NCBI GenBank assembly: GCA_949746915.1
Contig: CATKEA010000098.1
Span: 1 to 12,695, forward strand
Direction of reading: 5' to 3'
Length of the DNA: 12,695 bases
Source: an uncultured Bacilli bacterium
Lineage (GTDB): Bacteria; Bacillota_I; Bacilli_A; RF39; UBA660
This document shows positions 60 to 12,329 of the stretch, one piece after another. A program made the position numbers and the translations under genes. The notes under the pieces were generated by a model. It was not told where the DNA came from, did not search any database, and worked only from the letters and a program-made list of their open reading frames with translations. Within the stretch, counting starts at the first letter, position 1. Each line of letters starts with the position of its first letter.

Positions 60-92
60 CAAATATATAACAATAGTATGGAGAGTGATACC

Positions 93-572
93 ATGAATAA
101 TAAAAAAGGTTTTACATTAGTAGAATTGTTGGCCGTTCTTGTTATCTTAGGAATAATTATGGCAATAGGAGTAGGAGCTTATTCATCATATCAAAAAAAT
201 GCCAAAGATGATGCAATTAAAATAGCAGAAGATTCAATGGAATCTGGAGCTGCTAACTATTTTATAAATTGTACAACTAATTATGGTGGAAAAAATCAAG
301 AACTATGTAAACAATATACTATGCCATCAAATAAAAATGAAACGACAAAAGTATGGTTAAGAGATTTGATAGATGAATCGATATTAGAACCTATATCTAA
401 CCCATATAGAAAAGGAGAACATTGTAATAAAATTACAAGTTATGTTCTTATTAGAAATCGAGCAGAAAGTGATAAAAATCTTGACTTAGAATATATTGCA
501 TGTTTAGATTGTGGTAATTATAGAAGTCCAAATTCTAAATGTACCTGGACAGAAACTGCTCCAAGTAAATAA
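93..572 (+). CDS. Type IV prepilin-like protein with N-terminal methylation motif
   Basis: Predicted 159-residue pseudopilin/pilin. Residues 1-6 (MNNKKG) form a short basic leader. Cleavage by a prepilin peptidase is expected between G6 and F7, giving a mature end FTLVE with the conserved Glu at position 5 (E11), followed by a hydrophobic helix to about residue 30 that anchors the subunit in the membrane and packs the filament core. The rest is a hydrophilic head with six cysteines (C60, C72, C111, C137, C140, C150), which could make disulfides outside the cell. The start at 93 is preferred over an in-frame ATG at 78 because GGAGAG at 80-85 is well spaced for 93, and starting at 78 would bury the leader. 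No prepilin peptidase, assembly ATPase or platform gene is in the window, so it depends on genes elsewhere. The head domain is not recognised; whether it is a major pilin, a minor pilin or a competence-type pseudopilin is open. Confidence 0.88.
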   Translation: MNNKKGFTLVELLAVLVILGIIMAIGVGAYSSYQKNAKDDAIKIAEDSMESGAANYFINCTTNYGGKNQELCKQYTMPSNKNETTKVWLRDLIDESILEPISNPYRKGEHCNKITSYVLIRNRAESDKNLDLEYIACLDCGNYRSPNSKCTWTETAPSK

Positions 573-7420: not shown

Positions 7421-8965
7421 ATGGAAAAATATGATGATGATTTAGAGCTAAATAAAAAAGAAATTAAATCTAGAGTCCAAAGAAAAGAAGAAAGTAGAAA
7501 TAATAAAAAGAAAAACATCGTTGTAAAACGTAGACTTAGTAAAAAAGGAATGCTATATACATCACTTTTTGTGGGGTTCTTTTTAGTTATTTCTTTAGGA
7601 TTTTATATTTTTTCACCAAAAATAATTTTAAAAGGAAAGAAACATATCAAAATTAATTATGGTGAAAAATACGAGGAGGCTGGAGCAACAGGAAAATTTC
7701 TTGGTAAAGATGTAACAAAAGATTTAACAAGAACTGGTAGTGTTGATACTAAAACAGTTGGAAAATATAAAATAAGTTATAATGTCAAAAAGAGTATCTT
7801 TAATATAACTGTATCTCGTACTATTGAAGTAGTCGATGAAAAGGATCCAGTAATTGAACTAACTGGAGAAAAAGAAGTTAATGTATGTCCAAATGGTGAA
7901 TATAAAGAAGATGGCTATAAAGCTTATGATGAGTATGATGGAGATTTAACAGATAAAGTTAAAATTACTAAAAATAAAGATAAGATAATTTATAAAGTTG
8001 AAGACTCTAGTAGAAATAAAATAGAGATGATAAGAAAACTTAATCGCGTTGATAAAGATGCCCCAAAGATAACATTAACAGGTGGAGAAACTTATTATGT
8101 TAAATTGGAAAACGAGTATAAGGAACCTGGATATGAAGCTACAGATAACTGTGATGGAGATTTAACAGATAAAGTAGAAGTAAATGGTAAAGTAGATACT
8201 ACTAAAGAAGGAGTCTATGAAATTACATATAAAGTAACAGATTCTAATAAAAATGAAACAACCATCACAAGAAAAGTCTTGGTATACAAAAAAACTGATG
8301 TCAATAGTGGGGAAAGTAAACCAGGAGTTATATATTTAACATTTGATGATGGACCAAGTTCTGCAACAACACCAGATATTTTAGATGTTTTAAAGGACGA
8401 AGGTGTTAAAGCAACTTTCTTTGTTACTAACAGTGGACCAGATAATTTAATTAAAAGAGAATTTGATGAAGGACATGCTGTTGCACTTCATACGGCAAGT
8501 CATGATTATGCCAAAGTTTATTCTTCGGTTGATAATTATTTTAAAGATTTAGAAACTGTTCAATCAAGAGTTGAAAGAATAACTGGAGTAAAATCTAATA
8601 TAATCAGATTCCCAGGTGGTTCAAGTAATACTATAAGTAGAAGATATGATAAGGGTAGTAAGATTATGACAACTTTAACAAATGAAGTTTTAAATAGAGG
8701 ATATCGTTATTATGACTGGAATGTAGATGCTAGTGATGCTTGGACTTGTGCTAAGGCAAGTGTTAGTGATAAAAAAGGTTGTGTTTATAAGAATGTAACT
8801 AATAATTTATCTAAATCACGACCTAATATTGTTTTAATGCACGATATAAAGTATCATACTAAAGATGCTATTCGTGATATTATTAGATATGGTAAAAAGA
8901 ATGGCTATACATTTGCTAAGTTAGATGACAATGTAAAAATGATAAGATTTACTGTAAATAATTAA
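7421..8965 (+). CDS. Membrane-anchored peptidoglycan/polysaccharide deacetylase with three Ig-like domains
   Basis: A 514-residue predicted type II membrane protein. A basic cytoplasmic tail (1-42) is followed by one transmembrane helix (43-64). Then come three DUF5011-type Ig-like domains at about 67-139, 140-211 and 212-290; the last two share YDGDLTDKV or CDGDLTDKV, typical of the family. The C-terminal NodB domain (about 300-510) has every catalytic motif: TFDDGPS with D309 (base) and D310 (metal), HTASH with H357 and H361 (metal), RFPGGSSN with R396, DWNVDASDAW, and IVLMHD with H474. It should therefore be an active, metal-dependent deacetylase, most like PgdA-type enzymes that remove acetyl groups from GlcNAc of peptidoglycan and give lysozyme resistance; substrate is inferred. 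GGAG at 7408-7411 supports ATG 7421 over a GTG at 7388 that overlaps the -10 box. The Ig-like stalk probably holds the catalytic domain within the wall. Confidence 0.92.
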   Translation: MEKYDDDLELNKKEIKSRVQRKEESRNNKKKNIVVKRRLSKKGMLYTSLFVGFFLVISLGFYIFSPKIILKGKKHIKINYGEKYEEAGATGKFLGKDVTKDLTRTGSVDTKTVGKYKISYNVKKSIFNITVSRTIEVVDEKDPVIELTGEKEVNVCPNGEYKEDGYKAYDEYDGDLTDKVKITKNKDKIIYKVEDSSRNKIEMIRKLNRVDKDAPKITLTGGETYYVKLENEYKEPGYEATDNCDGDLTDKVEVNGKVDTTKEGVYEITYKVTDSNKNETTITRKVLVYKKTDVNSGESKPGVIYLTFDDGPSSATTPDILDVLKDEGVKATFFVTNSGPDNLIKREFDEGHAVALHTASHDYAKVYSSVDNYFKDLETVQSRVERITGVKSNIIRFPGGSSNTISRRYDKGSKIMTTLTNEVLNRGYRYYDWNVDASDAWTCAKASVSDKKGCVYKNVTNNLSKSRPNIVLMHDIKYHTKDAIRDIIRYGKKNGYTFAKLDDNVKMIRFTVNN

Positions 8966-8966
8966 T

Positions 8967-8988
8967 AAGGGACTAAAAGTCTCTTTTT
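8967..8988 (+). terminator. Rho-independent terminator of the deacetylase gene
   Basis: AAGGGACT (8967-8974) pairs with AGTCTCTT (8978-8985) over 8 bp with one G-U pair and a tight 3-base loop, followed by five T (8984-8988). It begins two bases after the stop codon. Confidence 0.82.
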
Positions 8989-9005
8989 ATATTAAGAATT
9001 TTTAT

Positions 9006-9034
9006 TTGACAAAAAGTTAATTAATTTGTAAACT
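9006..9034 (+). promoter_or_regulatory. Promoter of the surface protein gene
   Basis: A perfect TTGACA at 9006-9011 and TAAACT (4 of 6) at 9029-9034 have a 17-base spacer. They lie 33 bases before the ATG at 9067. The RBS TAGGAGTGAT is at 9054-9063. Expression signals therefore look intact upstream of the broken frame. Confidence 0.65.
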
Positions 9035-9066
9035 TAATAATATAAGAAAAATATAGGAGTGATAAA

Positions 9067-12000
9067 ATGGGAACTGTGGAAAATGTAAAAAAATCAACCT
9101 GGGGGGGGGGTACTTTAAGAAACATAGAAAAAGCATATTAGGAGGAATCCTGTTACTACTAATAATAAGTGTAGTAGGAGGAACTTATGCTTTGTGGCAG
9201 AAAACATATAAACAAAAAGAGTCCAATACTATAAGAACGAAATGTTTCAGAGTCAAGATGCTTAATGAGTCCAACGGAATTACAATGGAAAGTGTCATGC
9301 CAACAAGAGATGAAGAAGCAATGGAATATGATGGTTATACATTTACGATAAAAAATATATGTGAAACGCCAGCATATTATCAGGTAAATTTAGAAGAGTT
9401 AATAGAAGAAAAGAAGTTACCAAATAAGTATATAAGAGTATCGTTAAATAATAATAAAGGAAAGAACTTAAATACATTTAAAGAGGTAGAAACCACAATA
9501 GAAAATGCAGATATGTCACATAAACTAACAAGTGGAGCATTAAGGGCAAATGAAGAGATAACATATACCTTAAAAATGTGGATGGATGAAGAAACACCAG
9601 CAATAAAAGAAGTAATGAATACAACATTTACTAGTAAGGTAACAATAACAGCAACATATAAGGAAGAAATAGATTTAGAAAATGAGATAGAAACAAGCGT
9701 TGGAAGTAAGAATGAAGAGATATCAAAAGAGAAAGAAGAAATAACAATAACAGTAAATGGAGAGGGTTATGATATAGTAGAATACTCACCAGATGGAGAG
9801 AACTTTTATCTCGTAGAAAATCCAGGAAAAGATATAACAATAGATGTCACATTAACAGAAGAAGGAAAACATATAGTCTATGTAAAAGATGAAGTAGGAA
9901 ATATTAAAGAAGTAGAAGTAGAAACAACAAAACTAGATCAAACAGCACCAACTATTGAAATAGAAACAAATGATAAACAGGAAACTATTGAACTAACAAT
10001 CAATTTTAAAGATGAAAAATCAGGACTATTAGGTTACAAAATAACAGAAAGTAACATAGAACCAACAGAATGGGATAGTTTTGAAGAATTTGCTAGAAAT
10101 AGTACCAATACCAAAACAATAAAATTTACAATAAGTAAAAACACAACTTACTATATCTGGATAAAAGATAAGGTTGGAAACATTAATTACAAAGCATATT
10201 CAACTACAACAATAGATACAAAAGCACCAGAGTTAGAAGTAAGAAATAAATTAAGTAGTTATGGATTAAGTGATACAATAACAATAATAGCAACAGATGA
10301 TATAATAGGTTTAAGCGGAGTAAGTATAACAAGAACAGAAGGAGAATATCACTGGAAAGCGATAGATGAAACACCACTAGAATACAGTAAAACAGTAGAA
10401 GTAGAAGAGAATGGTACTTATTATATTAGTATCAAAGATGCATATGATCACATAACAACTAAACAAATAGTAATTGATAAGATAGATAGAGAATCACCAA
10501 CAAGTAGTTTTTCAACGCCAAATAGTACACAGGGAACAAATGAATGGTATCAAGACTTAAATATAAAAGTAGATTTATCTGACAATTTATCAGGAATAAA
10601 AACAGCAAAGTATTGTGTAACAACAAATGATACTTGTACACCAGATGTAACTGCAACAATTAGTAGTAACAGTTATACAGTAACATTAACTTCAAATGTT
10701 TCAGCACAAAAAGTATGTTCACAAGTAACAGATAATGCCAATAATACATCGGATATTAAATGTAGTAATACATATAAAGTAGATACTACAGATCCTAGTC
10801 AAAACTTTTCTATAGCAAGTAGTACATCAGGAACAAATAATTGGTACACAGCACTATCTGTAAAAGTAACAGTAAGTGATTTAGATTCAAAAGTAGCAAG
10901 TGCTAAATATTGTGTAACAACAAATGATACTTGTACACCAGATACAATGGCAACATTAAGTAATAATGAATTTAGTGTTACTTTAGGAACAAATGCTTCA
11001 GCACAAAAAGTCTGTGTCCAAACAACAGATAATGCAGGAAGAACAAATAGTGTAACCTGTTCTCAAGCCTATAAGGTAGATACTGTTAATCCGATTGCTC
11101 AGGTAAATGCTAATCGTGGAGATAGTAGTATAACACTTAGTGCAGCAAGTTCTAGTGATAGTGGTTCTGGAATTTCTACATATTATTATAGTAAAGATAA
11201 TGGAAGTACCTGGCAAACAAGTGCGACTAGTACTTATACATTTACTGGACTTTCATTCAAAGAATATACATTTGCAATTAAAGTGATAGATAAAGCAGGA
11301 AGGACAAGTAGTGTAGTAACAACTAAGGCAACACCACTTGTGCAATTATACAGAACCATAACAGCATCAGCACCACTTGATAATACTAGTAGTACCTATG
11401 TATCAAGTAGTACAGGAATAGATTTTGGAGCCGCTCCATCAGATACAAATGGAAAAGGAATCTATAAATTATCTAGTACCATAAATGATACCAATCCAAT
11501 TTACTATTACAGAGGAGAAGTAACTAATAATAATGTTAAGTTTGCACGCCTTTGTTGGAAGATAGTAAGAACAACAGACACTGCTGGTATTAAATTAATA
11601 TATAATGGAGCACCTGATAGTAATGGTGGATGTACAAATACAACAGGAACATCAACTCAAATTAGATTCGGCGCATTTAATACAAAATATGATTCAGCCG
11701 ATTATGTAGGATACATGTATCCAGAAACAACAAACGCAAATAATTCAACGATAAAAACATATATAGATGATTGGTATAGTAAAAATATGACTAATTATAC
11801 TAAATATTTAGAAGATACAGTATGGTGCAATAATCGACGGATTGCACGTGATGACAGTGATGAGACGGATGTTGTAATATATTACGAGGGCAATGAAAAT
11901 CTTTATCTTAATAATAAGCCAAAGCTAAGTCTTGTGTGCCCTAATAATAATGATAAGTTTACAGTAAGTAGTACCAAAGGAAATGGAAAGCTAACTTATC

Positions 12001-12329
12001 CAGTAGCTGTTTTAACAGCCGATGAAGCAACATTCGCTGGACATGGATATAAAGGAAGTAGAAAAAGTTATTTATGCACAAATCAATCCTGGTGGACCAT
12101 GACTCCCTCTAATTACGTCTATATTGATAAAATAACTACTCATAATACAGACGTATTTGCCGTAAGTTATGGTGGATCTGCCTTGCCCAACGATGTAAAA
12201 AATCCTCATGAAGATTATCCAGAAGTATCAATTGGTATTCGCCCATCTGTATCTCTAAACTCTGGAATTCTTATAAATAGTGGAAATGGAACAGCAAATA
12301 ATCCATATCAAATCCATGAAAACAAATAA
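9067..12329 (+). CDS. Large TasA-like/Ig-like repeat surface protein, out of frame at a G10 tract
   Basis: The ATG at 9067 has a good promoter and RBS, but as read it gives only 24 codons (stop 9139-9141), because ten G at 9101-9110 shift the frame. The remaining 1,045 codons are open from 9192, and the same frame is open back through the tract. With 11 G the product is 1,087 residues (numbering used here). Residues 16-23 are basic, 24-39 hydrophobic, ending GGTYALW, as in SipW-dependent signal peptides of TasA/camelysin proteins; cleavage after A42 is likely. Residues about 45-200 resemble the TasA/camelysin N-terminal domain (YTFTIKNICETPAYYQVNLE). Ig-like domains joined by D-x-x-x-P linkers follow, including two 99-residue repeats with four Cys each (nt 10482-11075), then an FN3-like domain (nt 11088-11337). 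The C-terminal third (nt 11340-12329) resembles DUF6273 domains (QSWWTMTP, IGIRPSVSLNSG). There is no LPxTG motif or C-terminal membrane helix. It is a probable wall or fibre protein; binding target unknown. Confidence 0.8.
9101..9110 (+). repeat. Homopolymeric G10 tract (candidate phase-variation switch)
   Basis: Ten consecutive G directly after codon 11 of the surface protein. Elsewhere in the window the longest G run seen is five (2202-2206), and the DNA is strongly AT-rich. The first two G complete a Trp codon. Frame is restored when the tract has 8 or 11 G; with 10 G it ends after 24 residues and with 9 G after 16. Confidence 0.9.
10482..11075 (+). repeat. Two tandem 297-bp (99-codon) repeats in the surface protein
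   Basis: Units at 10482-10778 and 10779-11075 are exactly in register. A 36-base block at 10611-10646 is identical to 10908-10943 and encodes YCVTTNDTCTPD. Both share the NxWY entry, the SAQKVC block and the TDNA turn. Each unit has Cys codons at the same four places (10614, 10635, 10716, 10761, and each plus 297), suggesting two disulfides per Ig-like domain. Divergence outside the block shows it is not a very recent duplication. Confidence 0.9.

Follow-up and report, generated by a model that had tools for sequence, protein, structure and literature searches.

A G10 tract between start codon and presumed export signal marks a probable phase-variable gene in an uncultured, AT-rich Bacilli bacterium

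The window, a stretch of 12,695 nucleotides on contig C98 of a 274-contig draft assembly (genome G000), carries on its forward strand a long gene whose early part is split between two reading frames. The gene starts at an ATG (9067-9069), 7 nt behind the ribosome-binding site (RBS) AGGAG (9055-9059), which has similar counterparts in sibling genes, and runs through a leader of MGTVENVKKST plus one base (9067-9100), a peptide that recurs in an in-frame sibling on contig C60. Directly behind the T at 9100, with its onset 34 bases past the A of the ATG, lies a run of ten G (9101-9110). As assembled, the ATG frame closes at a TAG (9139-9141) after 24 residues; this direct reading confirmed the G10 tract and the stop at 9139 that the first-pass annotation of this DNA had reported. 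The frame behind the tract is uninterrupted for 1,072 codons from 9111 to 12329, comprising (i) a Lys/Arg-rich and hydrophobic segment that ends in GGTYALW and is presumed to be an export signal (9111-9191), and (ii) a protein body of 1,045 codons plus a stop, counted from TTG 9192 (9192-12329), which bears out the long intact frame described earlier. This downstream frame joins the ATG frame at tract lengths of 2 mod 3, in agreement with the earlier statement that gain of one G or loss of two would bring the body in frame, and the assembled length of 10 is out of phase. The tract, a putative switch, would thus be OFF as assembled. At the tract edge, a CTG (9099-9101) is in the body frame at length 10 and is possibly a very weak start, lacking an RBS.

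A tract of this kind had been called very unlikely by chance, and our counts concur: not one of 200 sequences made from the window by dinucleotide shuffling contained G8, and base composition predicts, for the 1.42-Mb genome, 0.39 runs of at least eight G and 0.008 runs of at least ten, where the genome holds seven of at least eight. The window has no other G or C run of six or more. The first-pass annotation had also placed both a promoter and an RBS ahead of the gene. Its RBS stands; a candidate promoter was found in TTGACA (9006-9011) and TAAACT (9029-9034), which are separated by a 17-nt spacer without a tract and together (9006-9034) match 10 of 12 consensus positions, but it is weak alone, with three promoter-like sites in 8900-9200 as compared with 1.6 expected by chance. 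The G10 tract itself (L003) was ruled out as a promoter spacer at a score of 7 of 12, the threshold that we chose for the promoter type being at least 10 of 12. Near the start of the window (78-572) lies a type IV pilin-like protein with an N-methylation motif (PF07963).

The body of the window protein contains an N-terminal domain common to its protein family (9198-9680, with approximate limits), a PKD/Ig-like domain (11121-11312) that is a weak match under the Pfam cut-off, and a C-terminal domain (11346-12314) that is matched at 44-65% identity in further family members of this genome, in some cases over a part of its length. Among 42 aligned family members, the models matched at E 0.01 were Y_Y_Y in 21, PKD in 19, and Big_13 in 18, and the family profile matched adhesin and PKD structures at E 7e-6 and weaker. 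Homologs of the protein were present in 30 of the 37 sampled genomes of the taxonomic family, which we surmise to be RF39/UBA660 and gut-dwelling, and in none of the 23 sampled from other families of the class. The protein had first been labeled TasA-like, and we take its export signal to resemble those of SipW substrates. This label did not survive comparison with the relevant models: neither the TasA/camelysin model PF12389 (at E 0.1) nor the SipW-type signal model TIGR04088 matched the window protein, and TasA/camelysin membership was rejected. Further, PF12389 was absent among the 25 of 28 matching families listed for the 42-member alignment and appears solely in the precomputed labels of some distant homologs, and TIGR04088 gave, in seven scanned proteins, one weak match below cut-off to a distant homolog (E 0.18). 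A SipW-type signal peptidase (TIGR02228) is encoded above cut-off in the same genome (C120:7084-7539); because its family occurs in 32 of 40 genomes, it lends weak support to a SipW link. We therefore refer to the window protein as an exported Ig/PKD-type protein, with a presumed export signal and a presumed surface location.

Three of the seven G tracts of at least eight in the genome, namely those on C98 (the window), C103 (236-244), and C206 (1185-1193), occupy the equivalent site in three related genes with a common layout of ATG, a leader ending in TCA ACC, a T, the tract, TACTTTAA, and the presumed export signal. These genes are paralogs, and their tracts measure 10, 9, and 9 on identical 12-nt and 8-nt flanks, each of the three being out of phase. 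A DNA search of the genome recovered a fourth 5' end of this type on C60, where L242 and L241 (1723-3724) form an array in which an in-frame sibling, the fixed copy, precedes what is left of a window-type gene, the dead copy. The in-frame sibling has the leader MGTVENVKKST, an interrupted G-rich stretch of 11 nt, and then TACTTT, all in frame, and its reading frame extends for at least 517 codons within the stretch fetched; it has the look of a fixed ON member and shows the matching start and frame. This remnant is 92% identical to window positions 9083-9296; its tract is eroded, its reading frame closes after 81 codons, and its body seems to have been deleted, because the DNA behind it resembles, by eye, the end of the window gene.

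These copies bear on the possibility that a frameshift has recently turned the window gene into a pseudogene, or that its tract was miscounted. Homopolymers are error-prone, the tract comes from a single draft assembly, and a dead near-copy does exist on C60. However, the same design recurs in assemblies of several genera, the window gene keeps 1,072 open codons, and the true dead copy looks quite unlike it; as that copy is eroded and the window copy is not, the intact body is unexpected for a dead gene. We regard decay or assembly error as highly improbable. The first-pass annotation had named relatives with a continuous signal peptide and no tract as evidence against switching. This objection is half borne out: such relatives are common, and of 17 distinct N-termini that a motif script found in G000 and a second family genome, G001, 13 carry an unbroken signal peptide of the usual type and no tract; yet they are paralogs that stand beside tract-bearing genes.

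Across the taxonomic family, tracts of at least eight G were found in 169 of 243 genomes. By hand count, 52 of the 243 have at least ten such tracts, with a maximum of 79 (G182), as compared with 11 of 258 genomes from other families of the class. In 27 family genomes we examined 162 distinct tracts, a non-random sample that preferred tract-rich genomes and left out repeats and tracts with fewer than 25 bases upstream; a rule-based classification assigned 60 to a promoter type, 52 to a coding type, and 50 to neither. By hand count, 14 of the 52 tracts in one genome, G155, lie within 100 bases of the low contig end; this could reflect length mixtures or repeats, and we gave it no weight.

Removal of six doubtful cases from the 52 coding tracts, and addition of two that the rule had missed, gave a curated set of 48 from seven genomes (G000, G001, G022, G123, G158, G192, and G242). 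Throughout this set the start has an RBS with at least four of six matches, except in L222, whose upstream region is cut off, and in L120, where it is weaker. Five of the 48 are ON and 43 are OFF, where one third would be expected ON (P 0.0002); without G158, 5 of 29 are ON (P 0.045). The OFF tracts are mostly one G above an in-phase length (35 of 43: 19/19 in G158 and 16/24 elsewhere), the window and seven others being the exceptions, and the offset is single in G158 (19/19) and G192 (3/3) and mixed in G000, G001, and G242. Among the 19 coding tracts examined in G158, which has 49 tracts in total, 17 are exactly G9 despite diverged bodies (e.g., L203-L219). This uniformity fits poorly with free hypermutation, and nothing else weighs as heavily against free switching in that genome. 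In G242, one 5' module stands before different proteins with tract lengths of 9, 10, and 11. A leader-tract module in G158 (L201) precedes a type IV pilin-like protein (GFTLIELL), with three public proteins (P0226, P0241, and P0271) looking alike, and the putative switch is therefore not tied to one protein family.

Three readings would fit the excess of OFF lengths: a repertoire that displays few of its members at a time, mutation that balances out around G9-G10, or recoding to some degree. Since most OFF tracts are one G above phase and G9 is so uniform in G158, programmed slippage remains a rival: RNA polymerase or the ribosome would slip on the G run, and a gene fixed at an OFF length would yield some full-length protein in every cell. 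The first-pass annotation had named the transcriptional form of this alternative. Against this, in-phase members do occur (5 of 48, as well as the C60 sibling), the window and the seven other exceptions would need another shift, and tract lengths differ on constant flanks, from 9 to 11 in G242 and from 9 to 14 at promoters in a further genome, G013. Moreover, poly-G lies in promoter spacers across the family, including two in G158 itself, and recoding therefore cannot account for those tracts. We consider programmed slippage unlikely as an explanation of the window locus. Replication slippage, in comparison, covers coding and promoter positions with one process.

Tracts of the promoter type have -35 and -10 boxes on either side. 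In an earlier subset of 94 tracts, 33 reached a promoter score of 10 or more out of 12, where shuffling of the flanks gave an expectation of 2.25. A motif of TTGACA, 0-10 bases, at least eight G, 0-10 bases, and TATAAT had 153 matches in 36 of the 243 family genomes (a sum by hand, to which a single G028 tract contributed at least two repeat readings), and the reversed control motif had none in the same 243 genomes. Outside the family, the motif was found in 13 of 258 genomes, eight of them in family f21 (hand count); within f21, promoter tracts occur in 8 of 11 sampled genomes (G382, G429, G441, G453, G471, G483, G489, and G494). Promoter tracts are therefore not private to the family of the window bacterium. 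A clear gene of at least 50 codons begins 15-140 bases downstream of 45 of the 60 promoter tracts, and 39 of these 45 encode a hydrophobic N-terminal segment, as compared with 13 of 50 control genes of at least 100 codons located far from tracts (P 2e-9). Spacer lengths at the 60 promoter tracts span 15-21, with 19 the commonest (23 tracts). The textbook optimum for a promoter spacer is 17, and many of these promoters would therefore be weak as assembled. Several tracts in G002 and G171 (L069-L081) come, by eye, after the palindrome-like GTGTGCAATATGCACAC or its half and have an A/T-rich stretch and CCCTCTTTTT behind them, which sets them apart from the remaining promoter tracts.

The tract-edge codon of the window gene, CTG, has counterparts that are mostly ATG in G242 and mostly TTG in G158, and these codons raise a refinement of phase variation rather than its opposite. 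In such a graded switch, starts at the tract edge would add a second, weak level of expression in another phase, giving strong, weak, or no product. The edge codon is in frame at the modal tract length of G242 (10; 5 of 11), at that of G158 (9; 17 of 19), and at the window length. Among 74 public proteins related to the G158 set, 13 are called with a start at MGGGY. In contrast, no RBS is seen at a proper distance from the edge codon, CTG is a poor start codon, and 6 of 10 tracts in G001, as well as both sisters in G000, are in neither phase; we regard a graded switch as an unlikely addition. The MGGGY proteins were not counted as ON forms, as we took them to be gene-caller starts at the tract-edge TTG. 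Among 82 public homologs, the window gene was not encountered in ON form, and the nearest of them, P0001, starts inside the protein; judged on protein sequences alone, 3 of the 82 have GGG before the signal, as expected of ON forms. For the C206 sister, no ON form was present among the 120 matches listed out of 1,779. Of 14 loci on contigs with names, G runs of seven or more were confined to L104 and L105, both G9 and both belonging to G001 itself.

We further compared out-of-phase genes with one another by dN/dS over their first 160 codons, dropping pairs with pS of at least 0.72 or pN above 0.45. The value was 0.05 for the out-of-phase pair L124-L129 in G001 (0.24-0.68 for other pairs in that genome), 0.19-0.41 for three out-of-phase pairs in G192, and 0.26 for the out-of-phase pair L156-L159 in G242. 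An ON-OFF pair in G242, L157 (G9, ON) and L160 (G10, OFF), is near-identical downstream (pS 0.10, pN 0.02), with dN/dS of 0.20; the remaining four of six G242 pairs gave 0.87-0.94. Pairs in G158 gave 0.21-0.79 among the 40 of 111 that were listed. Related out-of-phase genes thus appear to be under purifying selection, with some pairs, at 0.87-0.94, showing little of it. Selection on the window gene is weakly shown, because the comparisons with its two sisters (dN/dS 0.46-0.51, pS 0.53-0.63) are near synonymous saturation. Selection on OFF genes would mean that these are expressed now and then or by part of the cells; it counts against decay or assembly error, and is also what programmed slippage would predict.

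Taken together, the sister tracts of 10, 9, and 9, the in-frame C60 sibling, the selection on OFF genes of relatives, and the promoter tracts favor the phase variation that the first-pass annotation had proposed, and we consider it likely that slipped-strand replication in the poly-G between start codon and export signal makes this gene phase-variable. At G10, ribosomes would make the 24-residue peptide and stop (OFF). Gain or loss of G by DNA polymerase would bring the tract to a length of 2 mod 3, at which translation from MGTVENVKKST would read on into the Lys/Arg-rich, hydrophobic export segment and yield the very large Ig/PKD-type protein (ON). This scheme presumes that replication slippage brings about the length changes, that the population is mixed, and that the protein is exported and exposed at the surface; the benefit may lie in antigen or receptor variation. 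The same switching logic would apply across the taxonomic family, promoter spacers included; since sister genes and related species have similar G runs, these bacteria probably switch such proteins by copying slips.

Poly-G contingency switching is textbook knowledge from a small number of proteobacterial pathogens, switch repertoires of such scale are known from Neisseria and Campylobacter, and Mycoplasma agalactiae, discussed below, belongs to the Mollicutes, kin of the window bacterium. The coding tracts resemble those of Campylobacter jejuni, where in-frame G8-G12 tracts toggle genes ON and OFF and strain NCTC11168 has 29 G/C tracts of at least seven (PMC4965091). Unlike C. jejuni, which belongs to another phylum and switches mostly surface-modifying enzymes (PMC4965091), the bacteria studied here would switch exported proteins themselves, with up to 79 tracts of at least eight in one genome (G182). 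A promoter poly-G alters expression of the surface protein PorA in Neisseria meningitidis (PMC3639595); porA thus has its counterpart in the promoter-type tracts found among relatives rather than in the window tract, which is coding. A parallel in a Gram-positive gut commensal is the pilus of Bifidobacterium breve, a surface structure with an intragenic G tract for which deep sequencing demonstrated replication slippage (PMC9187656). That work concerns a strain with two sortase pilus clusters (PMC9187656), whereas many different exported proteins of an AT-rich genome are concerned here. Another phase-variable coding G tract is that of gsmA in M. agalactiae (PMC9187656), apparently a single gene for a cell-surface product and without a paralogous set, in contrast to the set of sisters found here. 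Within open-licence PubMed Central, a scope that leaves most subscription papers outside, our searches listed no paper that describes loci of this type from this group of bacteria, and a term search of a 2025 phase-variation review returned neither "Firmicutes" nor "Bacillota" (PMC11868660).

The mechanism is thus known, and the taxon, the scale, and the set of targets appear new; judged from sequence, the locus would be an unusually large new instance of that mechanism. To the broader proposal, that this uncultured, AT-rich Bacilli family maintains a large and mostly OFF repertoire of exported proteins, each with its own poly-G switch in leader or promoter spacer, with as many as 79 tracts per small genome and with leader-tract modules shared by different proteins, we would give an even chance. 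If it is true, cells would display few members at once, in an antigen or receptor lottery among commensals; uncultured Bacilli would diversify their surface by slippage; and assemblies and gene callers would misread such genes as broken or mis-start them.

The four remaining tracts in the genome of the window, all G8, are of other kinds. One of them (L001, 1501-1508, C54) lies inside the frame of a predicted protein, presumably a capsule chain-length (Wzz-like) protein beside what we take to be a tyrosine-kinase-like gene; a slip would alter its last membrane segment, and the tract is possibly a capsule switch. Another (L011, 1501-1508, C241) lies at the RBS region, 7 bases before an ATG and, by eye, under a consensus promoter, and is possibly a third kind of tract.
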